The notes below the pieces were generated by a model. The model worked only from the letters and a program-made list of their open reading frames with translations. It ran no database searches and was not told the origin of the DNA. Positions 115 to 29,366 of a stretch of DNA of 39,865 bases are shown piece by piece. Numbering within the stretch: position 1 is the first letter of the stretch; each line of letters opens with the position of its first letter. A program made the translations under genes and the position numbers. Origin of the DNA: Candidatus Electrothrix aarhusensis (GTDB lineage: Bacteria > Desulfobacterota > Desulfobulbia > Desulfobulbales > Desulfobulbaceae); assembly GCA_004028505.1 (NCBI GenBank), contig MTKO01000088.1, positions 1 through 39,865 of the forward strand, read 5' to 3'.

Positions 115-312
115 ATGCACTGGTCGGTTGCACACCGTACCAGCAATATGGCTGATCGTCTGATGAAATTCATAAAATCTGCACAGCAATTAACTGAAAT
201 ATTAACTGTATACGTTGGTAATCCGGAACCAGTGCCGATGATGATGGCTGATCAATTAATCTTTATGCAACGGCTTAACTTCTATGTTATTTCAACTTGC
301 TATTTTGAGTAG
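115..312 (+). CDS. small ORF overlapping the start of the P-type ATPase; possible N-terminal remnant
   Basis: A 65-codon ORF that begins 16 bases after an AGGAG sequence at 94-98 and runs 29 bases into the ATPase gene in another frame. It starts with a His-Arg-containing stretch (VAHRTSN) and then a short segment that could match the small ferredoxin-like metal-binding domains often found ahead of P1B ATPases, but no CxxC is present. I do not recognise it with certainty. It may be a separate small protein translationally coupled to the ATPase, or an N-terminal part of the ATPase cut off by an indel, as seen in several other genes here. The spacing from AGGAG to ATG is longer than ideal. Confidence 0.25.
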   Translation: MHWSVAHRTSNMADRLMKFIKSAQQLTEILTVYVGNPEPVPMMMADQLIFMQRLNFYVISTCYFE

Positions 313-2443
313 CGCAGCCTATGTGGTGAAGACAGCAGCTCGGTCTACAACAGATGGTATAGAAATTGTTAAGGACTCCATTTATGGTAAGCTCAAAAGT
401 AAGCTCAGTCAGTTTGATGCTGACCCTCTGATTGATTCTTTACTGGCACCGGAAGATATTGAGAACAAAAAGTCGCTTTCGCAGGGGCAGAAGAAAGAGG
501 GTGTCGAAAGGGTATCTGTAGCTGAAGATATTGAAGATGAACCTGATTCACATTCTCTTGCAGAAAAAGATGTTAACCGTGATATGGTTATTTCTACTGT
601 TGCGATGGGAGCGGCTCTTATTGGAAGATTGGTGGCACCACCTGTGCTTTTGCTGAGTTTGCCGGGCTGGGGCTACGTATCTATGCCAGCATTTATTCAG
701 GCTTATGATAAGATTCGTCGAAACGAGGTTGATATAAATACTATTTATACTGTGACAGCTGCCGGGTGTTTTTCAGGAGGATATTATGTTTCTGGTACGA
801 TGGCTGCTTTCTTCTATGTGTTAAGTAAAAAGTTGCTTATCAAAATCACAGATGATTCCAAGCATAGCCTGATAGATGTTTTTCATCAACAACCACGTTA
901 TGTTTACGTATCGGTTGACGGTGGTCTTGAAGAGCGTCGTCCGTTTGATAGCCTGCGTTGTGGTGATACTGTCGTTATTCATGCCGGTAATCCTGTTCCA
1001 GCTGACGGAACAGTGGTCGAGGGAACGGCAAGCGTGGACCAGCATATTCTTACCGGTGAATCACAACCTGTAGAAAAAGAAAAGGGAGATAAGGTTTTTG
1101 CCGCAACACTTGTGTTAACGGGAAAGCTTTATATTAATGTTGAAAAAGCGGGGGAGGAGACCAGTGCGGCCCAGATAGGCAAGATTCTTGAGGAGATGAC
1201 GAATACTAAAACAGAATGGCAGCTTCGAGCGGAAGATTTTACCCAGAAAACAGTTATTCCCACCTTGGCAGCAGGGGCCTTGATGTTGCCTTTAGGTGGT
1301 CCTATGGCGGCTGTTGCTTTGGTGAATAGTCATTTTGGATATCGCCTTTCTATTGTCTCTTCAATTAGTGTGTTGACCTATACGCGTCTTATTGCCAGAC
1401 AGGGGGTGCTCATAAAGAACGGACAGGCACTGGATCAGCTTCACTCCGTAGATACGGTGATTTTTGATAAAACCGGTACATTAACCACCTCAATTCCAAA
1501 TGTTTGCATTATCCACAGTGGTGTTGAGTATAGTGACGAGCAGGTCTTGGCGTATGCTGCTGCTACTGAAGGAAAAAATGCTCACCCTATTGCTCATGCT
1601 ATTGTTATTGCTGCTAAAAATAAAGGGTTAAAATTACCTCTTTTAGATAAAGATTATGATGAAGCATATCAAGTAGGATATGGTATTCAGGCGAAAATAA
1701 AGGGGAGAGTGATTCGTCTTGGAAGCCGTCGCTTTATGGATAAGGAGCAAATTTACATAGGCAATCAGTTTCTTGTGGCTGAAGAGAGAGCTCATCAGCG
1801 GGGGCATTCTCTGGTTTTGCTTGCTGTAGGTAATTCTGTTGCCGGGGCCTTGGAGCTTGCTCCGACATTGCGCCCCCAGACATTGAGGGCTATTCAAGAA
1901 TTACAGACCCAACATAATAAAACTATATGTATCCTCTCTGGGGATCACGAATTGCCGACAAAAAATTTGGCTTGCCAGCTCGGTATTGAGAAATATTTTT
2001 TTGACGTCCTTCCGCAGGATAAAGCTGAAGTGATTAAGCAGTTTCAAGCGGAAGGGAGAACTGTTTGTTTTGTCGGTGACGGGATTAATGATTCCATAGC
2101 ACTCAAGCAGGCAGATGTCTCTGTCTCCTTGCGAGGTGCTTCCAGTATTGCTGTTGATACGGCAGATATTATTCTCATGAATGAAGAACTCATGCAGCTC
2201 TCATATTTATTTACTGTGATTGGGGAATATGAAGAGAAAATGCGTGCTAACACGTTAACATTATTGAGCCCGAGTGTAGCTGCTGCTGTTGGGGTACTGT
2301 TATTTCACTTTAATGTAGTTGATACGTTATTATTAAAACAGATTGGATTAACAGTGAGCTTGTTGAATACAGCGAGGCCTTTGGTGAACGAACAGGACTC
2401 TTCAGGAATTTTACAACCTTTCCTTGCTGAAATAACAGCATGA
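284..2443 (+). CDS. P-type (P1B-like) cation-transporting ATPase lacking the CPx motif
   Basis: Membrane ATPase of 719 residues that should couple ATP hydrolysis to cation transport through an aspartyl-phosphate intermediate. Visible motifs are TGES at 257-260 (actuator domain), the phosphorylation site DKTGTLT at D395, an HP dipeptide in NAHPIAHAI (the P1B nucleotide-domain signature) and GDGIND at 598-603. Hydrophobic pairs occur near residues 100-130 and 155-190, two more before the phosphorylation site, and a pair at the C-terminus. The segment that carries CPC or CPH in heavy-metal pumps reads FGY at 351-353, and there is no N-terminal CxxC domain, so the substrate cannot be read from the sequence. 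No clear ribosome site precedes the ATG at 284; translation may be coupled to the preceding small ORF. The stop overlaps the ATG of the next gene (ATGA). Confidence 0.93.
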   Translation: MLFQLAILSSAAYVVKTAARSTTDGIEIVKDSIYGKLKSKLSQFDADPLIDSLLAPEDIENKKSLSQGQKKEGVERVSVAEDIEDEPDSHSLAEKDVNRDMVISTVAMGAALIGRLVAPPVLLLSLPGWGYVSMPAFIQAYDKIRRNEVDINTIYTVTAAGCFSGGYYVSGTMAAFFYVLSKKLLIKITDDSKHSLIDVFHQQPRYVYVSVDGGLEERRPFDSLRCGDTVVIHAGNPVPADGTVVEGTASVDQHILTGESQPVEKEKGDKVFAATLVLTGKLYINVEKAGEETSAAQIGKILEEMTNTKTEWQLRAEDFTQKTVIPTLAAGALMLPLGGPMAAVALVNSHFGYRLSIVSSISVLTYTRLIARQGVLIKNGQALDQLHSVDTVIFDKTGTLTTSIPNVCIIHSGVEYSDEQVLAYAAATEGKNAHPIAHAIVIAAKNKGLKLPLLDKDYDEAYQVGYGIQAKIKGRVIRLGSRRFMDKEQIYIGNQFLVAEERAHQRGHSLVLLAVGNSVAGALELAPTLRPQTLRAIQELQTQHNKTICILSGDHELPTKNLACQLGIEKYFFDVLPQDKAEVIKQFQAEGRTVCFVGDGINDSIALKQADVSVSLRGASSIAVDTADIILMNEELMQLSYLFTVIGEYEEKMRANTLTLLSPSVAAAVGVLLFHFNVVDTLLLKQIGLTVSLLNTARPLVNEQDSSGILQPFLAEITA

Positions 2444-3504
2444 TTAATAAAATACGTCCAGTTCTTATGATTCCTCTGCGCCGTTGCGGTAGTCACGCTC
2501 TGCGCTTGCGTCTCAATCTCAGCCCTGAATTTTATGCACCATACCCACTTCACATTGTTGATTTTATCGACCTGCTCCCTTTGTATGGGAATTTGAACGA
2601 ACCGTCACGATATTTTCAGCTTGTTGTTGATCTTGTTGGGTTGCAAAATGCGAGTATGGTCAAATGGAAAAATATTGCGCTTGATCCTGTTTTGCTGTTT
2701 GAGAGAATACAAGAACGATCGCCTAATATTCATACTGTGCTGTGGGAAATGTTGTATATTGCCGCTGAGCAGCGAAAGGCACGGGTCGTGATGGATAAAT
2801 CTCTAGACAGCGTTTTCTATGCTGAAGAGCTGTTACGTGTTAATCCAAATATGCTGTTTTTAAATATCATTAGGGATCCGCGTGCGCAAATAAGTAGTCT
2901 GAATAAAGCCATTATCTATGATTTTAATACGCTTTTAAATACGCAACGATGGGTGAAAGCCTACAGAAAGGCAAGAGAAATTGAGCAGAAGTATCCCGAA
3001 CGAACTCTCACTATTCGTTTTGAAGATTTTGTCGTCCATCAGGAAGATATACTGCGTCAAATTTGTGATTTTGTCGGCATCAGCTTTATCCCGGATATGA
3101 TCAAAATCAGCCAATCAAAAGAAGCAATGGAGCTTTCTCGATTATCAAATTTATGGAAAAATAACGGATTCGACCCTATTCCTTCCAATATCAATAAATT
3201 TGCCAATAATCTGAATTATCAAGAAATTGTACTCATCGAGACATTAACTGAAGAGTTAATGGATTATTACGGATACGAACGCATGACAACTGGATCTGTC
3301 CACTTTGCACCGGAGCAGTATGAGCAGGCAAGACAGGAAAATTCTTTACAGAGGCAACGCGTTTGGAAGGGATTAGCGCAGCAGAATCATATTGATTATA
3401 CATTACGTCGTTTCAGGATAAATTATTTGGCAATGATACGGCATCGTTTGGAGTCTTCTGAAATTGTTGCAAGTGGACACGGTGTTGAACAAAGCGCCAG
3501 TTGA
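2440..3504 (+). CDS. sulfotransferase-fold protein (PAPS-dependent type)
   Basis: A 354-residue protein resembling the bacterial Sulfotransfer_1/3 families, which move sulfate from PAPS to a hydroxyl or amine. The N-terminal phosphosulfate-binding loop is visible as RRCGSHALRLRL from residue 14, and the 3'-phosphate-binding segment as IRDPRAQISS around R145. A typical C-terminal region follows (RFEDFVVHQEDILRQICDFVGI). The acceptor is unknown. The start ATG overlaps the ATPase stop, so the two are almost certainly co-translated. Its place in a cassette with a C39 exporter suggests, by inference only, modification of a peptide or an envelope molecule; the nearby 51-residue peptide contains no tyrosine but several Ser and Thr. 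The last ~70 residues are Arg/Gln-rich and unlike the core domain. Confidence 0.82.
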   Translation: MINKIRPVLMIPLRRCGSHALRLRLNLSPEFYAPYPLHIVDFIDLLPLYGNLNEPSRYFQLVVDLVGLQNASMVKWKNIALDPVLLFERIQERSPNIHTVLWEMLYIAAEQRKARVVMDKSLDSVFYAEELLRVNPNMLFLNIIRDPRAQISSLNKAIIYDFNTLLNTQRWVKAYRKAREIEQKYPERTLTIRFEDFVVHQEDILRQICDFVGISFIPDMIKISQSKEAMELSRLSNLWKNNGFDPIPSNINKFANNLNYQEIVLIETLTEELMDYYGYERMTTGSVHFAPEQYEQARQENSLQRQRVWKGLAQQNHIDYTLRRFRINYLAMIRHRLESSEIVASGHGVEQSAS

Positions 3505-3515
3505 AGAGAGAGAGG

Positions 3516-4247
3516 ATGAACAACCTGTATAGTGTTCTTGGGGTTGCCAAAGACGCAGACAGTGAAGAAATAAAAAAAAGCTTTCGTCTATTGGCTAAAC
3601 AATATCATCCAGATATAGCCGGAGGAGATAATGAACAGTTTCGAAAAATCACGCACGCTTATAAAATTATTTCAAATAAAACTTCCCGTAATGACTATGA
3701 TAAAACCCTAAATAATTTTCATTATCAAACAGGTAGTTTTTCCGAATATAGTAAGGACCGTTATACGGTTGAAGGGAAACATCTGAAGAAATTGATACAG
3801 GAAATTATAAGGTATGGTCATTTTACCTACCTAACTGTTAGGTATAAAGAAAAAAAAATATTTACCTTGTCGTACCCTATGGCTGTTGCATTTGCTGTGG
3901 TCGGTCTTATCAAGGCTCCTATTGCATTTTTGCTGTTGCATTTGGGAGCAGGGGCCTTGTGTACTGTTGAAGTGAGCAACCGACTGATGACATTATTTGA
4001 AGAAGCGCTGATCTACCATAATAGAGGAAGTATTCTTTCGGCGGAGAAACGCTATAAAGTAATACTGAAGAGGAGTGAATATTTTATACCGGCCCGCATA
4101 AATCTCGGTCTTCTGTACCGTCAGAGAGGGGAACGGCAAAAGGCAATACATTGCTTCCGAAAAGTGCTTGATGCGGTACCTTTTGGAGAAATAGGAGATA
4201 TGGCAAGAAGGCAATTAGAAGAATTACAAGGATTCTATTCAAGTTAA
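3516..4247 (+). CDS. J-domain (DnaJ-like) membrane protein with TPR-like C-terminus
   Basis: Starts at ATG 3516 behind a purine-rich ribosome site (GAGAGAGAGG). An upstream in-frame TTG at 3501 is possible but would sit inside the end of the sulfotransferase gene. Residues 3-65 form a J-domain with the essential HPD at 31-33, which should stimulate an Hsp70 partner. A hydrophobic stretch around residues 120-150 (MAVAFAVVGLIKAPIAFLLL) looks membrane-embedded. The C-terminal ~75 residues contain TPR-like helices (EEALIYHNRGSILSAEKRY, ARINLGLLYRQRGERQKAIH). The zinc-finger and substrate-binding regions of classical DnaJ are absent, so it is a specialised co-chaperone. Position between the sulfotransferase and the peptide ORF suggests a role in handling a client made by this cassette. 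Confidence 0.88.
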   Translation: MNNLYSVLGVAKDADSEEIKKSFRLLAKQYHPDIAGGDNEQFRKITHAYKIISNKTSRNDYDKTLNNFHYQTGSFSEYSKDRYTVEGKHLKKLIQEIIRYGHFTYLTVRYKEKKIFTLSYPMAVAFAVVGLIKAPIAFLLLHLGAGALCTVEVSNRLMTLFEEALIYHNRGSILSAEKRYKVILKRSEYFIPARINLGLLYRQRGERQKAIHCFRKVLDAVPFGEIGDMARRQLEELQGFYSS

Positions 4248-4257
4248 AACAAACTTG

Positions 4258-4286
4258 TTGACTCGTTCAGACGTATTCATTACATG
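4258..4286 (+). promoter_or_regulatory. possible sigma70-like promoter ahead of the small peptide ORF
   Basis: TTGACT at 4258-4263 resembles a -35 box; 17 bases on, TACATG at 4281-4286 is only a weak -10 match. It lies just after the J-domain gene stop and about 50 bases before the peptide ORF, where separate control of the peptide would be expected. Low confidence because the -10 is poor. Confidence 0.22.
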
Positions 4287-4336
4287 TGATTACGGCATAA
4301 ACTTATTCAATTTATTCAACTTATTAGGAATAAAAA

Positions 4337-4492
4337 ATGGAACAGCATACAAAAAAAACAACTCAGCACGCCGCTTTTGTTTCCTCTAGTAAAAAATGCA
4401 GAGTAGCGACAAATGTAAAAGCGGGGTGGAAATGGTTTGACGATTTCAAAGAAAAGGCAAGTAATAACTTGAATAAATTGAAAAACATCTAG
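4337..4492 (+). CDS. 51-residue Lys-rich peptide, candidate cargo of the C39 exporter
   Basis: ATG at 4337 follows AGGAATAAAAA, a reasonable ribosome site. The product starts MEQHTKKTTQHAAFV, has one Cys (C21), two close Trp in GWKWFDDF, and a Lys/Asn-rich amphipathic tail ending in KLKNI. It has no membrane segment and no double-Gly motif in this frame. It sits directly upstream of a terminator and of genes for an HlyD-like adaptor and a C39 ABC exporter, the usual place of a secreted peptide precursor. Shifting by one base at the A5 run 4481-4485 lets the frame continue to TGA at 4554-4556. That would give a 72-residue product ending LVEIEDNEMAGMG, whose acidic and hydrophobic spacing is leader-like. 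No family is recognised, and the function is inferred from position only. Confidence 0.5.
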   Translation: MEQHTKKTTQHAAFVSSSKKCRVATNVKAGWKWFDDFKEKASNNLNKLKNI

Positions 4493-4586
4493 TGATTTCA
4501 AGAAAACGAAACAACTTGTTGAAATAGAAGATAACGAGATGGCAGGGATGGGATGAACGTCCAATATTCAATAGTATTTCAGGCCT

Positions 4587-4616
4587 AGGGAGCCTACTCT
4601 ATCTCCCTCTTTTTTT
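4587..4616 (+). terminator. Rho-independent terminator-like hairpin after the peptide ORF
   Basis: AGGGAG at 4587-4592 pairs with CTCCCT at 4603-4608 around a 10-base loop, followed by a T-rich run (CTTTTTTTGC). Placed between the peptide ORF and the exporter genes, it would make the peptide transcript abundant and allow only partial read-through into the exporter, a common arrangement for secreted peptides. Confidence 0.55.
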
Positions 4617-4638
4617 GCTATTACAATAGTATGTCGAT

Positions 4639-5214
4639 ATGGCCATGTCTTTTTCACAGACCCTTGAGTCGCGTCATTATGATATTTCCAGGCTTTTCAT
4701 GATCGGAATGCTGGTTGCTGTGCCTTTTTCTGTGTTGTGGGGGTATTGGTTCTGTACCGCCTCAATTCCTGTCTACGAAACGACCCGTCAGTTTCGTGTT
4801 TCGGACAACGAGTTAATCAGAAAAACTTTTCCTCGTACGGGCGGAGGAGGGATACGTACTCAATCTTTGAAAAATAGAAAAATCTTTGCTGTTTTTTCCA
4901 CAAAGGCAGGGAAAAATATTACACGCTATCAACAGGGGTATTTTTTTCCACAGGCCGAAAAAAATAAAAAGGCCGGGGCTGTTCCTCTTACAGTTTTTGA
5001 AATTATCCCTAGACGTTCTGGTGAAAATGATAGGGTTGTCTTACTGGCAGAATACCCTGCCGATCAAACAGATCCTTTTGCTGATCGAACAGAAGGAGAA
5101 ATCTGCATTGCTGTCGGGCAAACAACTCCGCTGAAGATTCTGGCGCAATCATCAGGGTTACTGAAAGAAAAGAGCCTTCCTATCGCCTTTCTTTCTCAAA
5201 GAACAGCGCAATGA
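4639..5214 (+). CDS. short HlyD-like membrane-fusion/adaptor protein
   Basis: A 191-residue protein with one N-terminal membrane segment (about residues 18-40, LFMIGMLVAVPFSVLWGYWF) and a periplasmic beta-rich part. The section after the membrane helix (SIPVYETTRQFRVSD) and the later AEYPADQTDPFADRTEGEI stretch resemble the barrel region of HlyD-type adaptors. The long coiled-coil hairpin and lipoyl halves of full-length HlyD (usually 350 or more residues) are missing. It would sit on the inner membrane next to the ABC exporter. Start chosen at ATG 4639, with an alternative ATG two codons later; no good ribosome site is seen. Its stop overlaps the start of the exporter gene by four bases, so the two are co-translated. 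Confidence 0.68.
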   Translation: MAMSFSQTLESRHYDISRLFMIGMLVAVPFSVLWGYWFCTASIPVYETTRQFRVSDNELIRKTFPRTGGGGIRTQSLKNRKIFAVFSTKAGKNITRYQQGYFFPQAEKNKKAGAVPLTVFEIIPRRSGENDRVVLLAEYPADQTDPFADRTEGEICIAVGQTTPLKILAQSSGLLKEKSLPIAFLSQRTAQ

Positions 5215-7925
5215 TCTTTCGAGGAGCTTTTCCGAAAAGACGTTTTTTGATCCCCGAGGTTGTCCAGACTTCATCCATGGATTGTGGCCCGGCTTCTTTA
5301 AAGTCGTTGTTAGCTGGTTTTGATATTCCTGTTAATTATGGGCGTCTTCGTGAAGCCTGTATGACCGATGTCGATGGTACCTCCATTGATACTCTCGAAG
5401 AAATTTCCGTTGCTTTAGGTCTTGATGCTATCCAGATTATGGTGCCGGAAGATCATCTGCTACTCTCTGAAGCCAGCGCATTGCCTGCCCTTGTTGTCAT
5501 TCGACAACCAGGAGGGTTAACCCATTTTGTTGTCCTCTGGCGGCTTCACAATAATTTTGTCCAAGTTATGGATCCTGCCACCGGTCGTGCTTGGTGGACC
5601 CGTAAACGACTATTGAACAGTCTGTATATTCATGCCCTTCCGGTAACAGAAGACTTTGCCAAGGCTTGGATTAGTGAAGATAGTTTTATCGCATCGTTGC
5701 AGGCTCGTTTGGATCTTTTAGGTATACAGCAACAAACTATTGAAGAATTAATTTATCGTGCTCTGGAGCCCGATATTTGGCAGACAGTTGCCTCACTGGA
5801 TGCGGCAGCGAGATTAACTGAAACGTTGGTGCGTACAAAGGGTATTCAAGCTGGCACAGAAGCAGGAAAGGTGTTACGGGAATTTACTGACAGTGTCACC
5901 TGTTGTTCTATGGCTGACGCGTACACGGTCGTCCCGGAAAGATATTGGTGTGTTCGGAAAAGCCAACAGGGTGTGTTCCTGCATGGTGCTGTCCTGATTT
6001 CAGTCTTTGGAAAAGCGACGGCAGATGAAACTGATGATCAGGATGAGCCTCCTGTTTCTCCCAAAATTTCAGCAGCACTTCAGGAGAAGGAACGTCATGT
6101 AGGACTGGAAATTCTGCGGACGATATTAGAAAATGGTCGATTATTTCCAGCCTTACTTGTGGTGACACTTATACTGAGTTCTCTTGGAACAGCTCTTGAG
6201 GCTTTGCTGCTCAAAGGATTATTCGAATTTACCAATTTTCCAGCACTAGCCTATTATCGGGCAGAAATTTTTGGCGCACTTATCGTTTTTTTTTCCGCAA
6301 TGCTCATGCTAGAACTTTCAGGTGCTGCGACGGCTCTCCGTATAGGCCAATGGCTCGAAGTTCGTTTCAGGGTATCTATTTTACAGAAAATACCCCGTCT
6401 TGGAGACCGGTATTTTCATAGTCGTCTGACTTCGGATATGGCCCAGCGTGTTTATGAACTTCGGGCCTTACGGGGAGTACCTGAACTGGCTGTTACTGTC
6501 TTTAGAAGTATTTTTGAAATTATGTTAACAACTGCTGGGATTATTTGGTTGAATCCCTCAGGGGCCGTTATAGCTGTAGTAACCTCAATTCTTGTTGTCG
6601 GCGTTTCATTGCTTACCCAATCCTGGCTCAAAGAGCAGGACTTGCGTTTCCGTAGCCATATCGGAGCACTCAGTCGTTTTTACCTTGATGCTCTGCTCGG
6701 ACTGGTGCCTATCCGTACCCATCGGGCCGAGCGTTCAATATCTGTTGAACATGAAAGTATGTTGGTTAAATGGTCACGGGCGGGCATGAATTTTTACGCG
6801 ACCAATCTTGCGGCTGTTGGTATGCAGAGTTTGGCCGGGACATTTTCAGCTGTTTGGATACTTTTCAGTTATCTTAAAGGGGGTGGAGAGGCTGGCGGGG
6901 TACTGCTTCTGCTCTACTGGATCATGAAACTTCCCGTGCTAGGACAGACTTTGGCAGGGGCCTTTCAGCAATATCCCATGCAGCATAATCGCATGCTTCG
7001 TCTTTTGGAAATGCGTGACAGCAGCGAGGAAACAGAAACTTGGTATAACGAAGAGCAAAAAGAGCAAACACGGGGGAGTGCTTCTCAACCTGATGCACAA
7101 GCAGCATCGTCATCAGGACTTTCGATAGTGATGGATGCGGTACAGGTTCATGGAGGTGGTAAAGTTTTGCTCAAAGATATTGATCTTAACGTGAACAGTG
7201 GAGATCATATTGCAGTTGTAGGGCCTTCTGGTGCTGGGAAATCAAGTTTTGTCGGTCTTCTTCTCGGCTGGAATCAGCCTGTATCAGGCTCTGTGCATGT
7301 TGATAATGAGCTGTTACATGGGGAGCGCTTGTATCGCCTTCGTAAAGAAACAGCATGGGTTGATCCTGGCGTGCAGTTGTGGAATCGTTCTTTGGAAGAA
7401 AATTTACGGTACGGAACCTATGATGAGACAGCTTGTTCCCTTGAAGAAGCTATGCAATTAGCTGATCTGTCCGAGGTAACAAATCGACTTGCGGGTGGTC
7501 TCACGACACTTCTTGGCGAAAACGGAGGGTTGCTGTCTGGAGGTCAAGGGCAACGCGTTCGTTTGGGCAGGGCTTTTCTACGTACCGGAGTTCGTTTGGT
7601 GATTCTGGATGAGCCATTTCGGGGCTTGGACCGAGAAAAACGAAGAGAATTTCTGCAACGTTGCCGTCAATACTGGCAGGGTGCGACATTATTTTTTGTC
7701 TCACATGATATTGATGAAGCCTTGGGCTTTAACAGAGTGTTGGTCATGGAACAAGGTGAGGTTGTAGAAGATGGCCGCCCTGATCATCTCGTGGAAGATT
7801 CCCGATCACGCTATCACGCCTTATGGCAAGCAGAACGCAATATTCAGCAGAAACTGCATGAACACCACCGATGGCGGAATTGGATTATGAAGGAGGGGAA
7901 ACTTCAAGAAAAACCGAATTCTTGA
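5211..7925 (+). CDS. C39 peptidase-containing ABC exporter (bacteriocin/RiPP type)
   Basis: A 904-residue fused exporter. Residues 15-125 are a C39 cysteine peptidase with the full triad: C25 in MDCGPAS, H105 in LTHFVVL and D121 in VMDPATG. C39 domains cut leader peptides after a double Gly during export. Residues about 145-300 are an insert of unknown fold between peptidase and membrane part. Residues about 310-590 hold the transmembrane domain. The ATPase domain has Walker A GPSGAGKS at 671-678, signature LSGGQGQR from residue 775, Walker B with D800 and E801, and the H-loop VSHD. All catalytic residues are intact. The 4-base overlap with the adaptor gene indicates co-translation. It is the last gene of the cassette and meets the GGDEF gene tail to tail. 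The substrate is likely the upstream peptide, but this is inferred. Confidence 0.93.
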   Translation: MIFRGAFPKRRFLIPEVVQTSSMDCGPASLKSLLAGFDIPVNYGRLREACMTDVDGTSIDTLEEISVALGLDAIQIMVPEDHLLLSEASALPALVVIRQPGGLTHFVVLWRLHNNFVQVMDPATGRAWWTRKRLLNSLYIHALPVTEDFAKAWISEDSFIASLQARLDLLGIQQQTIEELIYRALEPDIWQTVASLDAAARLTETLVRTKGIQAGTEAGKVLREFTDSVTCCSMADAYTVVPERYWCVRKSQQGVFLHGAVLISVFGKATADETDDQDEPPVSPKISAALQEKERHVGLEILRTILENGRLFPALLVVTLILSSLGTALEALLLKGLFEFTNFPALAYYRAEIFGALIVFFSAMLMLELSGAATALRIGQWLEVRFRVSILQKIPRLGDRYFHSRLTSDMAQRVYELRALRGVPELAVTVFRSIFEIMLTTAGIIWLNPSGAVIAVVTSILVVGVSLLTQSWLKEQDLRFRSHIGALSRFYLDALLGLVPIRTHRAERSISVEHESMLVKWSRAGMNFYATNLAAVGMQSLAGTFSAVWILFSYLKGGGEAGGVLLLLYWIMKLPVLGQTLAGAFQQYPMQHNRMLRLLEMRDSSEETETWYNEEQKEQTRGSASQPDAQAASSSGLSIVMDAVQVHGGGKVLLKDIDLNVNSGDHIAVVGPSGAGKSSFVGLLLGWNQPVSGSVHVDNELLHGERLYRLRKETAWVDPGVQLWNRSLEENLRYGTYDETACSLEEAMQLADLSEVTNRLAGGLTTLLGENGGLLSGGQGQRVRLGRAFLRTGVRLVILDEPFRGLDREKRREFLQRCRQYWQGATLFFVSHDIDEALGFNRVLVMEQGEVVEDGRPDHLVEDSRSRYHALWQAERNIQQKLHEHHRWRNWIMKEGKLQEKPNS

Positions 7926-7949: not shown

Positions 7950-10295
7950 TCAGGATTCCTCTTGTCGCTTATTCCTGTACATACGTTCATCCGCAGTATT
8001 CAGCAATTCATCTGCCAGCATCCCGTCATCCGGGTATACAGCCGTGCCGGTAGCAGCGGAGATATTGATATTAATATCAGGAGATAGCTGACAAGGAGCC
8101 CCCAGTGCTGCATTGATTTTATCGACAATCCGCAAGAGATCATCATTGCTTTGCATACCGGGCAGAAGCAGAACGAATTCATCCCCACCCATCCGGGCAA
8201 CCATATCCGCTTGCCGTACAGAGGAAAGCAAACGGCGTGCAACCTCCTGAAGAAGAAGGTCTCCGGTATCGTGCCCGTATTGATCATTAACCGGTTTAAA
8301 TTTATTCAGATCAATAAAAATCAGAGCCATTTTTGCTGAGCTCTGTTTTGCCGCGATCAGTTCCTGTTCAAATCTCTCATAAAAGAGCAGTCTGTTGGCC
8401 AACTTGGTCAGGCAGTCATGGTAAGCGTTGTGATGCAATTGCCGCTCCATCCGCCTGCGTTCAGTTATGTCTGTGGCGATCTGAATTTTAACATCACGGC
8501 CATCGAACCATTTAATGACCCGATCATGCAATTCGTACCAGCGTTCGTTAAAGGGGTTTTGTCGTTCCCAGACATAACTTTCGCCGGAACATTCACCGCT
8601 ATCGCACAGTAGATCGTTGGGACAGCAATCACAGGGGCCGTCCAATCCTATTTGCAAACTTTTCCAGCAGATGGCTCCGGTTATGTCACCGAATATATCA
8701 AGAGCGTATTTATTGAGAAAGAGTAACTTATATGATTCAAGATCAATAACATAGACCATAGCGTCTATGCTGTCGAGGACGGTGAGAAGTCGTTGGCGGG
8801 CGGCTTCCAAGGCTTCTTCTGCCTGTTTCCGCTCGGTTATATCCCGGATGACGGCTACAAAACAAGCTGTGCTGTGGTCCGGCTCAATGTATTGGAGGTG
8901 GATCTCAACCGGAATTTTGGTCCCGTTTTTATGCTGATGGACGGTCTGAAAGAAGAGATTTTTTGTCTTGCCCTTTGTTAATTCGGCGATCATTTCTCGA
9001 AATTTCGCTTCTGTAAAATCGGGTTTAATGGATACCGGAGTCATCTTCATGAATTCGTCCGCACTATAACCGACCTGATTCTGCCCGCCCTGATTGACAT
9101 AGGTAAATCGCAGTGTTTCCGGGTCAAACATGAACACGGAGTCAAGGGTCTTATCCAAAACATTTTTAAAACGATTCAGCTCCAGACGGGTTGTTTCGCG
9201 GCTGGCATAAAAGCTGATCAGAAGCCAACTGATTGGTCCCAACAGGATAAAAAGGACCAAATTGAAGAGCAACAGGCTGTACCGAGCAGGCATCAGATGT
9301 TCCTGCTCAATCTGTTCAAGAGGAAGGCGGGTGAGCAATTTCCAATAATATTCTCCTGTCTTAATTTCCTCCTCACTTTCTCCAAACGCATTGGGATTTC
9401 CCGTGCTGGAGGTCATACCGTCACTTAAAGGATAAAGAGTTATAAAAGTGAAGAGGTTTTCGTTGGTGACAAATTGACCTGAGTATTCCGAAGAAATATT
9501 TTTCCATGCTTCCGGGTAGCTGGCATCAAAGGTGCGTCCAGCACGTTCAGACCACATGAAGGCCCAAGCATCATTTTGTCGTTCTCCATACAACCAGTAG
9601 CCCTCACGATTGAGCAGCATGAGTTTCCCATGCAGGCGGTCAGCTGTATACTCAGCCAGTTGATCCAGAATTTCTTGACCAAGGTAATTCAGAAGAACAA
9701 CCCCCTGTTTGTTCCCTTTTTGATCAAATATAGGGGTTCCGAAACGAAGCATAGGTTTATAGGGCTTTTCAACAGCGCCGTGTTCTACGTTCAGGTCAAA
9801 GGGGGAGATAAAGACTTCACCATGATTGAGTTTGATCGTATCCTGAAAATAATAGCGCTTTCCTTTATACTGGAGATCTTTTTTCGGCACGATAACGCTT
9901 TGTTCTGCAATACGATTGACCCGTATCTGCTCCATGCCATCCTTGTTGACGAGTCTGACTTGATCATAGACCCGTCTATGTTGCGAAAAAAGATGGAGGA
10001 TTTCGGTAAAGTTATTCAGAGCGTCTTTCTGCTCCTTTTGGTCGGAGCATTTCGGATATGATTCAGCAAGAATTTTAAGATCGGTGGTGATGTTCAAGAA
10101 CAGCTTGTGGATTCCATCCTCATGTTGGCCGATGATATATTTTTCTTCGCTTTTATGCAGTTCTTCCTGGTGTTTTTTTTCGTCTTGATAAAACAGATAG
10201 GAAATGGAGAGACTCAAGAGCATGATCGGAAGGATCAGGAGGAGAAAGCAGTACAGTCTATTCGGGCTATGTATGCTCTGGAACTTTTTTTGCAT
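7950..10295 (-). CDS. membrane-bound PAS-PAS diguanylate cyclase (GGDEF) with periplasmic sensor
   Basis: A 781-residue signalling protein that should make cyclic di-GMP from two GTP. An N-terminal membrane helix (about residues 14-35) is followed by a ~300-residue periplasmic region of Cache-like character, then a second membrane helix (LLLFNLVLFILLGPISWLLI). Two cytoplasmic PAS domains follow; the first starts near FKNVLDKTLDSVFMFDPETL and ends in a PAC-type RDITERKQ, and the second has a Cys-rich loop (CDCCPNDLLCDSGEC). The GGDEF domain ends the protein, with an intact GGDEF at 703-707 and an RQAD inhibitory-site motif just upstream, implying product feedback. No EAL domain. No clear ribosome site is visible at this ATG, so an internal start is possible. 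The Cys cluster in the second PAS could bind a metal or cofactor (inference). Confidence 0.92.
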   Translation of the reverse strand: MQKKFQSIHSPNRLYCFLLLILPIMLLSLSISYLFYQDEKKHQEELHKSEEKYIIGQHEDGIHKLFLNITTDLKILAESYPKCSDQKEQKDALNNFTEILHLFSQHRRVYDQVRLVNKDGMEQIRVNRIAEQSVIVPKKDLQYKGKRYYFQDTIKLNHGEVFISPFDLNVEHGAVEKPYKPMLRFGTPIFDQKGNKQGVVLLNYLGQEILDQLAEYTADRLHGKLMLLNREGYWLYGERQNDAWAFMWSERAGRTFDASYPEAWKNISSEYSGQFVTNENLFTFITLYPLSDGMTSSTGNPNAFGESEEEIKTGEYYWKLLTRLPLEQIEQEHLMPARYSLLLFNLVLFILLGPISWLLISFYASRETTRLELNRFKNVLDKTLDSVFMFDPETLRFTYVNQGGQNQVGYSADEFMKMTPVSIKPDFTEAKFREMIAELTKGKTKNLFFQTVHQHKNGTKIPVEIHLQYIEPDHSTACFVAVIRDITERKQAEEALEAARQRLLTVLDSIDAMVYVIDLESYKLLFLNKYALDIFGDITGAICWKSLQIGLDGPCDCCPNDLLCDSGECSGESYVWERQNPFNERWYELHDRVIKWFDGRDVKIQIATDITERRRMERQLHHNAYHDCLTKLANRLLFYERFEQELIAAKQSSAKMALIFIDLNKFKPVNDQYGHDTGDLLLQEVARRLLSSVRQADMVARMGGDEFVLLLPGMQSNDDLLRIVDKINAALGAPCQLSPDININISAATGTAVYPDDGMLADELLNTADERMYRNKRQEES

Positions 10296-10706: not shown

Positions 10707-12161
10707 ATGACCGCCATGCCTGAAAATGCTGATTCGCTCATCTACAGCCATAATGATGAACCGGTTCTGGAAACCGCGTTTAATGAGGAGTTCATTGCGC
10801 GACTTTGTGGGATTATCCGCAACTGCCGGCCACCAAAAGGCTTGGCTGTTACCGGTTACTGGGGAACGGGTAAAACTAGTACCCTGAAGCAGCTTTATTA
10901 TCATTTGACCGGCAAGCTGCCACCGGGTTGCACCGAGCGTGATAAGCCCGAAGGTGGCCCGCGACACAAGGATGTTGCTCTAGTACCGGTCTGGTTCGAG
11001 GCTTGGCGATTTCAGCACGAACAGCAGCCCATCGTGGCTCTGCTTAATGAAATCCGGGTTAAGATAGGGCTGCTCAACAGGCTGACAGCTGAAGCGGGAA
11101 AACTCGGCAGTGTCGCGCTTCTCGGTTCTTTGAGCATCTTTGATGAAATCATCAAAACAGCCTCGGGCGGTACAGCTACTCCCAAAACCGGCGGGATCAT
11201 GGCCATCGGAGAAAAATGGGAGAAAGATCGTTACCTGAATAAGCTGCCCAGTGCGCAGATCAGCGGGCTTCTGGAAGAGGCCATTAAAAAAGGCCTCGGT
11301 AACCGTGTAAAGGGCAAAGAAAAACGCTTGATTATCTTTATCGACGACCTGGACCGCTGCCTGCCCACCGCCTCTTTGCGTCTGCTGGAAGGAATCAGGA
11401 TCTACCTGAATCTGAGTAACTGCATCCTTGTTTTCGGCATGGATCACCGCCAGCTGGAGCAATCACTCCTTGAAGCACTTCCTTGGATCGACAATAAAAA
11501 TGAGGCGGACAGGAAGCAGGCATCCTATTATGCCAATGAATATCTGGAAAAAATCTGTCAAGACATTCACCAGCTGCCTTTACCGGACCTGGAAGAGAAG
11601 GCGAAGTATTTCAAAAGTCTGCTCAGTAGGTTGGACAGCAAACTGAACAGCGACAATGCAAGAGAATCCCTTGACCATGCCCAATTCCTGGATCAGATCC
11701 TCCGGCAATTCGACTGCCTTCCCGCCAATCCCCGCAAGATCAAGATGCTGGTTAATCGTGTGGCTTTGATGCTGCGTGAGATTCCACCAACAGAGGAAGA
11801 GGACGTCAGTGGTGATGATCCCGTCAGGCAATACAAGTTGTTGCTCATAGCGGCCATTATCTGTACTTTTCATAAACGAATATATGAACAGTTGGTGAGT
11901 AATCCCGGCTATATCAACGAGGTGCTCAACTACAGCAAAGCCGATTTGTCCCTGATTATACAGGATGCCAAGGATTCCGGTCAGCAGAGTCGGTTTGCCC
12001 CTATGACCGATGTGCTCACTTCACGAACTGAGGGTGAACGCCTGCCGGTTAATCCCAGTGACAGTAATGTCTTCCGACTGCATGAGCTTCTGGACGACCT
12101 TGACGTGATCACCAAAGATGAAATTGAGCCGTATTTGACGCTCAGGAGGCCTGTGCAATGA
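10707..12161 (+). CDS. KAP-family P-loop NTPase
   Basis: A 484-residue protein of the KAP (Kidins220/ARMS, PifA) STAND-type NTPases. Walker A is GYWGTGKTS at 50-58, the KAP-typical WFEAWRFQ follows, and Walker B is FIDDLDRC with the acidic pair at 213-214. The region after it (NCILVFGMDHRQLEQSL) and the later LPANPRKIKMLVNRV are also family-like. Unlike many KAP proteins, I see no pair of membrane helices inserted in the NTPase core, so it is probably soluble. KAP NTPases are known in phage exclusion (PifA of F plasmid). The last four bases overlap the start of the NACHT gene, so the two are co-translated, which suggests a joint function. Confidence 0.9.
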   Translation: MTAMPENADSLIYSHNDEPVLETAFNEEFIARLCGIIRNCRPPKGLAVTGYWGTGKTSTLKQLYYHLTGKLPPGCTERDKPEGGPRHKDVALVPVWFEAWRFQHEQQPIVALLNEIRVKIGLLNRLTAEAGKLGSVALLGSLSIFDEIIKTASGGTATPKTGGIMAIGEKWEKDRYLNKLPSAQISGLLEEAIKKGLGNRVKGKEKRLIIFIDDLDRCLPTASLRLLEGIRIYLNLSNCILVFGMDHRQLEQSLLEALPWIDNKNEADRKQASYYANEYLEKICQDIHQLPLPDLEEKAKYFKSLLSRLDSKLNSDNARESLDHAQFLDQILRQFDCLPANPRKIKMLVNRVALMLREIPPTEEEDVSGDDPVRQYKLLLIAAIICTFHKRIYEQLVSNPGYINEVLNYSKADLSLIIQDAKDSGQQSRFAPMTDVLTSRTEGERLPVNPSDSNVFRLHELLDDLDVITKDEIEPYLTLRRPVQ

Positions 12162-12616
12162 ATCAGTCGCTGCCTCCGACTCAGCTGCCCCGTAAAGATG
12201 ATTTTGTCGATATCCCCAATAACCGCACCCTGCTGCGTTATTATCAAAAGCTGTATCAGCACTTCTCCTATGCCAATAATTTCGGCTTAGCTCTGGATGA
12301 CGACGACCGAGCAGGCAAAAAGGGGAAGTCCATCCTCCTCAGTAAGCTTTTTGTCGCACCAAAGCTCTCCGCCGCCCACATCCGACCGGAGCAGCAGGTC
12401 GATGCTGAGCATGAGCAGGAGAAGGTTGTGCCGGAACGGCAACATTTTGCAGATGTCCTCAAGAAGCACCAGCGGCTTTTCATTCTCGGCGATCCCGGCA
12501 CGGGTAAATCCACCCTGATTAACTGGCTGATGCTGGAGCTGAGTTATAGCGGCGACAGCATGCTTAAACTGGCTTTGGGTAATGTGGTTCCCTTTGCTTT
12601 ATCCTTCGGGATATGA
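12158..12616 (+). CDS. NACHT NTPase, N-terminal part (frameshifted gene)
   Basis: First part of a NACHT-LRR protein. An ~100-residue N-terminal region (LLRYYQKLYQHFSYANNFG) precedes Walker A GDPGTGKST at 111-119. The frame then derails after VVPFAL and stops at 12614-12616. The next frame carries ILRDMKLSNVSSWDDLW, the expected NACHT continuation, from 12601. Adding one base near 12595-12601 restores a single ORF from 12158 to 14406, about 749 residues. The sequence at the junction is not a classical XXXYYYZ slippery heptamer, so a true mutation or sequence error is more likely than programmed shifting. The start overlaps the KAP stop (ATGA). Confidence 0.85.
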   Translation: MNQSLPPTQLPRKDDFVDIPNNRTLLRYYQKLYQHFSYANNFGLALDDDDRAGKKGKSILLSKLFVAPKLSAAHIRPEQQVDAEHEQEKVVPERQHFADVLKKHQRLFILGDPGTGKSTLINWLMLELSYSGDSMLKLALGNVVPFALSFGI

Positions 12617-14406
12617 AGTTGAGCAATGTCAGCTCCTGGGATGATCTCTGGCAGAGCTGGTGTGCGGCGAACCCGGCTTTTGGGCCGATTATGGAGGAGG
12701 ATCGCGGCACGTTGGAACAGGTCTTCAGCTCTGGGCAGGCCCTTTTTCTTCTGGACGGCTTGGATGAAATCTCCAACCGGGAAATTCGTGCCGGGTTAGG
12801 TCGGGCAATTCTGGATGGGCTGAAAAAATATCCACGCTGTCGTTTTGTTATCACCTCTCGTATCCTTGGCTTTTCGCAGGAGGAAATACTTGGGTTTGGG
12901 ATCAAGATGCCTGGAGGTGCAATACAAATGGCGTCAGGATATACTGGCGTAGGAAAATTTTATGATCTTATACCGGTACGGTACCTCGCACCCTTTGATC
13001 CAGATCAGGTCCGCAACTTCTGTAGCAACTGGCACAGCCAATACGTTGCCCAAGATCGGGAAAAACGCTTTGCCGATCTTCTGGAACGTCTCAAGCTCAA
13101 TGACGGTTTGGCCCGCTTGGCTCGGATTCCGGTGCTTCTCAATATTGTCTGCTTCATTCATGCCCGTCGGGGTCAGCTGCCTGATGGTCGGGCTGAGCTG
13201 TATCGCCGAATTGCCGAGACCTACCTTACAGCCTTGGATACGGCCCGTGGTATTCGTTTCCGTGACCGGAGCTTGCAGTTTGATTTTTATGACCTGCATG
13301 GTTGGTTGGGTGCAATTGCCTGGAGGATTCAGCAAGGTCGTGGGGAAGAAAATAATAGCGTGGTCATCGCGCAGGCACGGGTGGAGGAGATTTTTCGTCA
13401 GGGCATTCTGGATACCGGCCTGAGTGAGAAGGAGGCAGAACAGGAAACAGCCTTTATCATGGATTATATTGCTGAACGCAGTGGGCTTTTTATTCCCAGG
13501 GGCGAATCGGAAACAGGGGAAACCCTGTATGCCTTTACTCATCTTAGCTTTATGGAATACTTTGCTGCTGCTCACTTACGTTCCGAGGTGGAATTTTGGG
13601 ATAAGGATGGTGCGGAATGGCAGGCTTTGCGGGAGAAGATGCAGCAGCCTGTGTGGAAAGAGGTTTTTATTCTCTTTTTTGAGCTGATGGAGAATGCCCG
13701 GCAGACGGAGCATTATTTGGCGCTGTTGGTGGGGAGTAAGCCGGATATTATTGAGAGAAGAGAAGGAAATTATATGCCGGTATTGGAAGAATCTTTTGTG
13801 TTCGATATCAAGACGGTCTCCTTTTATATTTGGTTTGCTTGGGAACTATTGGCTGGAATAGTTATGGATACGGCAGTCAAGATGCCGCTAAGATCTCGAC
13901 AGGAGTATCTTAGTTTGCTTTGGAGTTTTATTCTCAGCGCTCAAATGCAGCGAAGTATATTGGGGCTAAATCCCATGCTGACGCACCTTTGGATTGAACA
14001 GTTTGATTCTCTTTCTCTGTTTCAGGAACAGGCAAGAAACATGGAACAGCTCAAATTAGAGGGGCAAAGAATCGCTGACCTCACACCACTGGAAAAACTT
14101 GTCAGTCTTAAGGAATTGTATATTGTAGAGTGCTCACTCAATAGCTTAGATCCATTGGGTAAGTTACTTAATCTGGAACGACTTTATTTGATTGAGGTAG
14201 AGGTTAAGGACCTCTACATATTAGCTAACATTAAGCAACTTAAACATCTTTCGATGATATCCTGTTCGCTCGACAATTTGACTTCCCTAAGCAAACTTGA
14301 TCATCTTGCAGAGCTTAATCTAACCGGAAGTAATGTCAGCGCGAGCTATGTGAAGGAGCTGAAGAAAAAAATACCGCATACAGAAATTATATTTGTTGAA
14401 GAATGA
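12613..14406 (+). CDS. NACHT NTPase with C-terminal leucine-rich repeats (second part of split gene)
   Basis: Carries the rest of the NACHT domain: Walker B FLLDGLDEIS (46-53 region), sensor-like RFVITSR, then winged-helix and helical parts (LARLARIPVLLNIVCF, FTHLSFMEYFAAAHL, both typical of NACHT NTPases). The C-terminal ~110 residues form about five leucine-rich repeats (LVSLKELYIVECSLNSL, LLNLERLYLIEVEVKDL, IKQLKHLSMISCSLDNL). Bacterial NACHT proteins with repeat domains are known anti-phage sensors related to animal NLRs, with the repeats as ligand recogniser. No separate effector domain is obvious. The ATG at 12613 has no ribosome site and lies inside the conserved fold, so this ORF is best read as the continuation of the preceding one. 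Confidence 0.87.
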   Translation: MKLSNVSSWDDLWQSWCAANPAFGPIMEEDRGTLEQVFSSGQALFLLDGLDEISNREIRAGLGRAILDGLKKYPRCRFVITSRILGFSQEEILGFGIKMPGGAIQMASGYTGVGKFYDLIPVRYLAPFDPDQVRNFCSNWHSQYVAQDREKRFADLLERLKLNDGLARLARIPVLLNIVCFIHARRGQLPDGRAELYRRIAETYLTALDTARGIRFRDRSLQFDFYDLHGWLGAIAWRIQQGRGEENNSVVIAQARVEEIFRQGILDTGLSEKEAEQETAFIMDYIAERSGLFIPRGESETGETLYAFTHLSFMEYFAAAHLRSEVEFWDKDGAEWQALREKMQQPVWKEVFILFFELMENARQTEHYLALLVGSKPDIIERREGNYMPVLEESFVFDIKTVSFYIWFAWELLAGIVMDTAVKMPLRSRQEYLSLLWSFILSAQMQRSILGLNPMLTHLWIEQFDSLSLFQEQARNMEQLKLEGQRIADLTPLEKLVSLKELYIVECSLNSLDPLGKLLNLERLYLIEVEVKDLYILANIKQLKHLSMISCSLDNLTSLSKLDHLAELNLTGSNVSASYVKELKKKIPHTEIIFVEE

Positions 14407-28502: not shown

Positions 28503-29366
28503 ATGACAATGCTATACATCATAGGTAACGGATTTGATCTCTGGCACGATCTTCCAACCAATTACAGCCAGTTCTATGAGTTCGCACAAGACGCGCTTGA
28601 TGAACTTGAGTCCTATTTCAATATTGATATCACGACAAGTGCCCCTTGGTGTGATTTCGAGAATTGCCTAGGTACCTATGACTGGAACCTACTCTATGAA
28701 GATCATGACCATACCGATGTTACCGCTGAGTCATTCAGACCAAGTGAGGCGTATGGATTAGAGGACGAGCTGACTATGCAAGCTGATGAACTCGTTCAAA
28801 CAATTGAGGAGAAGTTTCATCAATGGATTGACGGGATAGACGTTTCTATAGCCCGGAAGAAAATTAAATTCAATATTGATGCTCGCTATCTCACATTCAA
28901 TTATACTTCGACACTTCAGGTGGTCTATGGGATAGATAACGACAACGTCCTGCATCTCCATGGAAGATCAGACAGTATGGATCAACTGGTTTTTGGTCAC
29001 TGTAAGACAATGGCGGAAGAATCTGAATTAGACGAGAACGGTGATAGTAATCGAACAATGTTCTCTGATGCGGAGGGGGCAGCCAAGTATCCATTTTACG
29101 CGCTACAGAAGCCCAGCGATAAAATAATCGCCAAGAATCGGGAGTATTTTGAATCTCTGGTTGGAGTTAAAGAAATCGTTGTAATTGGCCATTCATTGAA
29201 TGACGTGGATCTCCCGTATTTCCAGGAGGTGGCAGAGAAAACTATGGGTTGCAGATGGCTGGTCTACTACTACTCAAAATCAGAAGAGAAAGATCATATC
29301 CGACAGTTGATCAAGTGCGGTATTAGCAAAGAGAACATTCGCACATGCACATATGCTGACCTGTAG
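28503..29366 (+). CDS. AbiH-family abortive-infection protein
   Basis: A 287-residue protein matching the AbiH (PF14253) pattern: MLYIIGNGFDLWHDLPTNY at the N-terminus, FNYTSTL followed by VLHLHGRSD in the middle, and VVIGHSLNDVDLPYF near the C-terminus. AbiH proteins confer abortive infection against lactococcal phages by an unknown mechanism; the N-terminal glycine motif suggests nucleotide binding. ATG 28503 or 28509 are both possible starts. It lies 33 bases before a universal-stress gene, but a common operon is uncertain. It is a lone defence gene, about 13 kb from the KAP-NACHT module. Confidence 0.88.
   Translation: MTMLYIIGNGFDLWHDLPTNYSQFYEFAQDALDELESYFNIDITTSAPWCDFENCLGTYDWNLLYEDHDHTDVTAESFRPSEAYGLEDELTMQADELVQTIEEKFHQWIDGIDVSIARKKIKFNIDARYLTFNYTSTLQVVYGIDNDNVLHLHGRSDSMDQLVFGHCKTMAEESELDENGDSNRTMFSDAEGAAKYPFYALQKPSDKIIAKNREYFESLVGVKEIVVIGHSLNDVDLPYFQEVAEKTMGCRWLVYYYSKSEEKDHIRQLIKCGISKENIRTCTYADL

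Follow-up and report, generated by a model that had tools for sequence, protein, structure and literature searches.

The arrangement of genes closest to the one described here is that of the raxX-raxSTAB cluster of Xanthomonas, in which a peptide, a sulfotransferase, an adaptor and a leader-removing exporter are encoded together, according to the part of the published account that was available (PMC6637879). The same set, a small precursor peptide with a sulfotransferase, an adaptor and a C39 exporter, was found in a six-gene cassette near the start of a 39,865-bp stretch of DNA from Candidatus Electrothrix aarhusensis, one of the cable bacteria (Desulfobulbaceae); this stretch, hereafter the window, is contig C74 of genome G000 (3.73 Mb, 143 contigs) from contig base 1, with the DNA upstream of it unseen. 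A preliminary description of the window had held that the cassette matched no system that could be named; with the rax layout to hand, that claim now applies to the two further genes, encoding a P-type ATPase and a J-protein, neither of which is mentioned for rax in the available part of the account (PMC6637879). By its Pfam match (PF13469, E 6.6e-20) the sulfotransferase expected of a rax-like cluster is present. However, the peptide of the window and its orthologue in a second species of the genus (genome G004) lack tyrosine, the window peptide lacks Gly-Gly, the adaptor is not recognisably HlyD, and the nearest outside relative of the exporter sits in a DUF692 cluster of the kind that makes ribosomally synthesized and post-translationally modified peptides (RiPPs).

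We read the locus as a composite peptide-export island, in which a leader-peptide export core (the peptide, a short membrane protein and the C39 exporter; module A) is accompanied by a natural-product accessory add-on (the ATPase, sulfotransferase and J-protein; module B), and we give this reading a probability of roughly 0.57. In the genus there exist both exporter loci without the add-on and a nonribosomal peptide synthetase (NRPS) locus with the ATPase and J-protein in a genome without the exporter.

Among systems defined by their exporter, the PCAT/C39 bacteriocin exporters likewise have a C39 domain with an intact triad fused to an ABC exporter. Among solved structures, those closest to the window exporter carry the label 'ABC-type bacteriocin transporter' (E 1.4e-8 to 1.8e-8; 4ry2 is the best chain over the full length, at E 1.6e-8), and the PDB matches are PCAT1-type and ComA chains. 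In contrast to these exporters, the window has a leader that ends [ST]x[VIL]KAG and not GG, and a long insert between the peptidase and the first membrane helix. The NHLM/NHLP export families (TIGR03796/TIGR03797) are among the best-scoring, and paralogous loci in the genus have a second ABC protein as those systems do, but TIGR03796 scores of 158.4 and 164.1 bits are so far under the cut-off of 853.3 that NHLM membership is ruled out, and the peptides have no family match.

The cassette and its counterpart in a second species

The features of the cassette and its boundary are listed below; percentages are amino acid identities to the G004 orthologue unless another genome is named.

284-2443, plus strand: P1B-type P-type ATPase, 719 aa; no HMA domain and no CPx metal site; motifs TGES (257), DKTG (395), HP and GDGIND (598) intact; 82%
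2440-3504, plus strand: sulfotransferase (Sulfotransfer_3, PF13469), 354 aa; 84%
3516-4247 (alternative TTG start 3501), plus strand: membrane J-protein, 243 aa; J-domain with HPD, hydrophobic stretch at about 114-154, C-terminal tetratricopeptide repeat (TPR); 83%, and 62% to G002
4337-4492, plus strand: putative precursor peptide, 51 aa; Lys-rich leader (residues 1-30) ending TNVKAG, amphipathic 21-residue tail (31-51); 73%
4337-4426, plus strand: putative leader part of the peptide gene (residues 1-30), presumably cut after Ala29-Gly30
4587-4616, plus strand: weak stem-loop, then a T-run, between the peptide and adaptor genes; -7.2 kcal/mol, z +0.38
4639-5214, plus strand: short single-pass membrane protein in the adaptor position, 191 aa; no family match; 66%
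5211-7925, plus strand: C39-peptidase ABC exporter, 904 aa; triad C25/H105/D121 with Q19, ABC motifs intact; 78%
7950-10295, minus strand: PAS-GGDEF diguanylate cyclase, convergent boundary gene, occupying the same place in G004

The six open reading frames (ORFs) occupy 284-7925, all on the plus strand, with overlaps of four bases at 2440-2443 (ATPase and sulfotransferase) and 5211-5214 (short membrane protein and exporter), as the preliminary description had placed them. Intergenic gaps of 89 bases, between the J-protein and peptide genes, and 146 bases, between the peptide and adaptor genes, lie on either side of the peptide. A Pfam scan returned the P-type ATPase, Sulfotransfer_3, DnaJ with TPR, and C39 with ABC families, and no family for the peptide and the adaptor. 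The peptide gene had also been credited with a terminator of its own, which did not hold up; the stem-loop (6-bp stem, 10-base loop) folds no better than shuffled sequences and is absent from the list produced by a terminator scan.

The same six genes occur in the same order in G004, and the ratio of nonsynonymous to synonymous substitution rates (dN/dS) between the two copies is 0.10-0.23 across the six genes, with 0.22 for the peptide; the peptide ORF and all six genes are under purifying selection. Because a second species has the same ordered genes with low dN/dS, the cassette is not a product of chance. The diguanylate cyclase gene downstream is common to both copies. Beyond what the window contains, G004 has a second upstream ATPase (40-41% identity) and a second peptide, with a leader that also ends TNVKAG. 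Its NRPS genes run into the cassette on the same strand, and the approach to the cassette includes a formylglycine-generating-enzyme-like gene and a gene with a weak, below-cut-off match to radical SAM proteins. An upstream part common to the two copies was ruled out, bases 1-330 of the window being unmatched in the G004 stretches. A 65-aa ORF (115-312) stands directly before the ATPase gene of the window; it is unmatched in Pfam and, as DNA, in those stretches. The G+C content of the add-on genes and the peptide (284-4492) is 36-43%, compared with 48% for the window after 10296, which may be a sign of recent acquisition.

The exporter and its putative leader peptides

The exporter matches PF03412 (E 6e-19), and the full triad attributed to it earlier is confirmed: C25, H105 and D121, as well as Q19, are invariant in eight of eight related exporters. 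It further matches PF00664 and PF00005, with a Walker A motif GPSGAGKS at 671, a signature LSGG at 775 and a Walker B motif ILDEP at 798; the long insert lies between the peptidase (to about 134) and the first membrane helix (from about 310). This subfamily comprises eight copies in six of the eight genus genomes, and in the other two, G002 and G005 (69% complete), ABC-domain matches only and no exporter were found. The paralogous loci, here termed type-2 (six; L025-L030) and spread over six of the eight genus genomes, have a short adaptor, a C39 exporter and a second ABC protein in succession, and the fetched stretches (20 kb each; 6.4 kb for L027) contain nothing related to the ATPase, sulfotransferase or J-protein. 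The preliminary description had put the six genes forward as parts of one system; that they form an obligate one is not supported, since six of the eight exporter stretches lack relatives of the other three genes, an outcome that the description itself had named as refuting. The other refuting outcome that it named, the lack of a conserved peptide ORF at this place, did not occur. Neighbours at L025, L026 and L028 include a band-7 protein, a binding-protein-like lipoprotein and a DUF697 protein (Band_7 and DUF697 confirmed by Pfam for L026); proteins of these three kinds recur at NRPS loci (L063 and L064 of G004, L114 of G002). The second ABC protein of L025 (7179-9376; contig C68 of G000) is encoded by two overlapping ORFs, and that of L026 and L028 by one.

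A profile of the peptidase-plus-membrane part, searched at E 1e-15 in 395 genomes of the phylum, matched only the genome of the window, the other exporter-bearing genomes of the genus lying outside this sample. A scan of genome contigs with the exporter gave nothing beyond a match of 29% confined to the ABC domain. In 72,556 plasmid records, the peptidase-plus-membrane part of the window exporter had one match, on a plasmid of Piscinibacter gummiphilus (NZ_CP136338.1); a plasmid search with a type-2 exporter gave 61 records, none of them aligned over more than 80% of the query, and the nine listed besides Piscinibacter cover 18-22% of it, in the C39 part. The Piscinibacter exporter has the triad and is 35% identical over its full length, it is preceded by an overlapping, unannotated HlyD ORF (PF13437, E 2e-12), and a 57-aa protein with the motif VNVKLG is annotated nearby. 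In contrast to the window, its surroundings are a RiPP-type cluster with genes for a DUF692 (MbnB/TglH/ChrH) enzyme, MoeB, MoaD, TfuA and a carbamoyltransferase, and no P-type ATPase, sulfotransferase or J-protein is annotated in two stretches of the plasmid.

The protein encoded at 4639-5214 had been described as a HlyD-like adaptor. What stands of this is a short protein with one membrane helix in the adaptor position; no Pfam or NCBIfam family was matched up to E 0.1, the best result of a profile search in the PDB was a nanobody (E 0.97), and comparison with the Piscinibacter HlyD profile gave a probability of 0.9%. Structure predictions from single sequences were poor, with a mean pLDDT (predicted local distance difference test) of 46.5 for the adaptor and 44.2 for the J-protein. 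The best reason for calling the protein an adaptor is the HlyD ORF that precedes and overlaps the related Piscinibacter exporter gene.

The Lys-rich, cargo-sized peptide ORF noted earlier is real and conserved, with 10 Lys in 51 residues. ORFs of 44-63 aa with the motif [ST]x[VIL]KAG, encoding peptides with a KAG leader, are present at seven of seven exporter loci with enough upstream DNA; the eighth, L027, whose contig ends 662 bases upstream of the adaptor gene, was left out of this count. At five of the six type-2 loci an ORF of 44-49 aa lies 2451-2531 bases (about 2.5 kb) upstream of the adaptor gene. Among 1304 ORFs of 40-70 aa (1272 distinct) in 17 partly overlapping stretches, the motif was found in eight, and these are the eight peptides of the exporter loci. 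With ten peptides of the genus aligned on KAG, the leaders are 30-34 residues long, with K at -3, A at -2, G at -1, V/I/L at -4 and -8, and S/T at -6; position -10 is V/I/M in eight and Cys in two. When the Piscinibacter peptide is included, K at -3 and G at -1 are kept in 11 of 11, A at -2 in 10 of 11, and V/I/L at -4 in 11 of 11. The leader is constant across the family and very basic (net charge +5 to +11), and the tails differ between locus types; a constant leader with a variable tail is the usual appearance of exported precursor peptides. Cargo status, previously drawn from the position of the gene alone, thus gains the recurrence of a relative at every testable exporter locus, and the peptide is best called a putative cargo.

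A profile of the peptides matched five of 257 genomes of the class at E <= 0.01, all of this genus. A profile of the exporter-locus ORFs detected two further peptides in G000, on contigs C129 (L074, about 1537-1668; E 1.8e-6) and C46 (L075, 1501-1644; E 0.013), with no exporter nearby, and a profile including these two found no further members in the other genus genomes beyond the peptides of the exporter loci. In the genus genomes without the exporter, G005 gave no match and G002 one at E 0.74; this match and those in G000 (E 2.06) and G001 (E 2.84) were taken as chance, as was the pattern ACNAAYGTNAARGCNGG at one site in G003, where the frame has no ATG start. The helical moment of the window tail was reached by 0.6% of 2000 shuffled sequences, and that of the G004 form by 0.9%; the moments of the other four tails tested were unremarkable against shuffles. 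The peptides scanned matched no known peptide family in Pfam or NCBIfam, and no record of a leader of the type [ST]x[VIL]KAG was found in the open-licence literature.

The ATPase, sulfotransferase and J-protein

The ATPase scores 383 bits with TIGR01525 (cut-off 346). It was correctly described as CPx-less; it has no CP dipeptide anywhere and no HMA domain by Pfam, and YRL stands at the position of CPC. No CPx was seen by eye in the corresponding columns of eight aligned ATPases, and with neither CPx nor HMA a canonical metal pump is ruled out. The family was collected at E 1e-120 from 249 genomes of the class; up to four candidates were scored in each genome, and these include at least nine members in the genus, that of the window included, and at least one in another family of the order. 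An NRPS condensation domain lies within about 6 kb of five of the nine genus members (three in G004 and two in G002), and of none of five more distant ATPase sites (31-33% identity). G002 has four copies, in a genome without the exporter or a significant peptide match, and of the two others there, one adjoins a type III polyketide synthase (PKS)-like gene and one a carboxyl-methyltransferase gene. The copy in G007 is split by a reverse-strand ORF, and in G063, outside the genus, the family member lies next to a histidine-specific methyltransferase gene. CPx-less P1B-type ATPases thus stand repeatedly beside NRPS, type III PKS-like or methyltransferase genes (L055, L056, L057, L058, L059, L062 and L103). 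The only biosynthetic gene near a P-type ATPase on a Methylobacterium plasmid is one for exopolysaccharide, in an annotation that is incomplete.

Similar company is on record elsewhere. The miuraenamide cluster, an NRPS region, includes two P-type ATPases; in the available part of that report they are ORFs without a pathway gene name and no peptide exporter is mentioned, which sets the cluster apart from the window (PMC10051162). The lusichelin cluster has one P-type ATPase, which the accessible portion of its description ties to siderophore transport (PMC12210259). The lusichelin case speaks for a metal role of ATPases in such clusters.

The sulfotransferase is matched best among solved structures by the sulfotransferase of CurM, a polyketide enzyme (E 1.3e-6), and also by TPST2 (human tyrosylprotein sulfotransferase 2; E 5e-5). 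Its nearest relative outside the genus (52%; G232) follows a gene that reads by eye as an adenosine 5'-phosphosulfate (APS) kinase. No relative of the window ATPase or J-protein adjoins five other sulfotransferases from outside the genus (27-30%).

The J-protein most likely starts at the ATG at 3516, behind AGAGAGAGG, and not at the TTG at 3501; from this ATG it has 243 aa, the same length as in G004. It matches PF00226, with HPD at residue 31 of the 243-aa form. It is not a full-length DnaJ, the zinc-finger and C-terminal DnaJ domains being unmatched in Pfam (which returned DnaJ, a TPR-type family and a weak DUF4342) and TIGR02349 giving 71/377 bits. At E 1e-15 the family has three members in the 249 genomes, in G000, G004 and G002. 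That of G002 lies at 114 kb on a contig where 81-107 kb is occupied by NRPS genes, an ATPase, a Sulfotransfer_4 protein, PKS-like sequence (by eye) and another sulfotransferase-like ORF, which Pfam does not match. An ATPase, two sulfotransferase-like genes and the J-protein are thus found within a 33-kb stretch with NRPS genes in a genome without the exporter, and it follows that the association of the ATPase and J-protein with an NRPS locus does not depend on the exporter.

Elsewhere in the window, KAP NTPase, nSTAND3-type and leucine-rich repeat (LRR) ORFs lie in a row at 10707-14406 and an AbiH-type gene at 28503-29366; these are possible anti-phage genes.

Competing readings and their meaning

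Under the composite reading, we infer from sequence comparison that the peptide is the cargo, that it is cleaved and exported, and that the three add-on genes form one module. The first 30 or so residues of the 51-aa peptide, rich in Lys, would serve as a leader, which the C39 domain of the exporter would recognise through the hydrophobic residues at -4 and -8 and the K-A-G at -3 to -1 and would cut after Ala29-Gly30. The ABC domains would carry the 21-residue amphipathic tail over the inner membrane, perhaps aided by the single-pass partner encoded at 4639-5214. An add-on module of a kind found with NRPS genes elsewhere in the genus would have been joined upstream of this core in two species, where it would most likely act on a natural product by modifying, folding or pumping it. 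It is conceivable that a single product is served by all six genes.

Several observations weigh against this reading. Classical C39 substrates carry Gly-Gly at the cut site, and Ala-Gly, and neither Gly-Gly nor Gly-Ala, stands at the aligned presumed site in ten of ten genus peptides. Two of the four peptides of the window genome are on contigs without an exporter, and G001 has the exporter with no peptide match at E 0.01, for which its cut contig is the sole explanation. The resemblance of the Piscinibacter 57-aa protein is weak (rank 2 of 461 ORFs by the peptide profile, E 2.3), and the short membrane protein, as far as its sequence goes, is not provably HlyD-like. The sulfotransferases of G002 are not close relatives of that of the window, for which G002 gave no match at E 1e-8, and because they differ, only the window and G004 contain the three-gene module as such. 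Finally, no NRPS was seen beside the window ATPase, and the whole of G000 gave no more than two weak condensation-domain matches, so that a partner for the add-on is unseen.

A truncated natural-product locus might simply lie beside an independent peptide exporter, the two having no common product. This would account for exporters that occur without the other three genes and for the ATPase and J-protein that occur without the exporter, and the gaps of 89 and 146 bases and the G+C content of the first three genes (38-43%, against 47% for the exporter) would suit it as well. However, two species retain the join, each of its genes being under selection, all six genes are co-oriented, and G004 has two peptides at the joint; such an accident of neighbourhood is accordingly a doubtful explanation, though one that retains some weight. 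It is unlikely that the small ORF encodes a regulatory or chaperone-bound small protein in which the KAG motif has been kept for another reason. The two relatives on contigs without an exporter, the lack of Gly-Gly and the very basic leader would fit such a protein, but a constant leader with a variable tail, found at all seven testable exporter loci and with no significant match in the two genus genomes that lack the exporter, would not.

A true counterpart of rax, with the sulfotransferase sulfating the peptide, the C39 exporter both trimming and exporting it, and the ATPase and J-protein accessory to one sulfated peptide signal, has the attraction that the gene set of peptide, sulfotransferase, adaptor and C39 exporter equals that of raxX-raxSTAB, as far as the latter is set out in the available part of its account (PMC6637879). 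The six genes are, moreover, contiguous in two species, and the sulfotransferase does weakly match TPST2. Tyrosine sulfation of the window peptide is nevertheless ruled out, as it has no tyrosine; neither has its orthologue, and only the second G004 peptide has one. The CurM enzyme, and not TPST2, is the best solved match, a relative of the sulfotransferase is found without the exporter in G232, beside the APS-kinase-like gene, and such a relative is absent from six of the eight exporter stretches. With so much against it, a sulfated peptide signal is distinctly improbable.

On the composite reading, the product of the export core is likely to be a bacteriocin-like or signalling peptide. No paper on peptide natural products of cable bacteria, or on their export, was found in the open-licence literature. 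A wider proposal, and very much a long shot, is that cable bacteria possess a leader-peptide family with its own C39 exporter, merged in some species with NRPS lines through CPx-less ATPases that have switched from metals to natural products. The peptide would be released into the filament-long periplasm, since the adaptor is too short to reach an outer-membrane channel, and would act there as a filament-internal signal or structural component and not as a secreted bacteriocin. With its defined leader motif the peptide family can be searched for, and a single peptidase assay would suffice to test the exporter. Should the CPx-less ATPases indeed handle natural products, a pump family known for metals would have acquired a new use.

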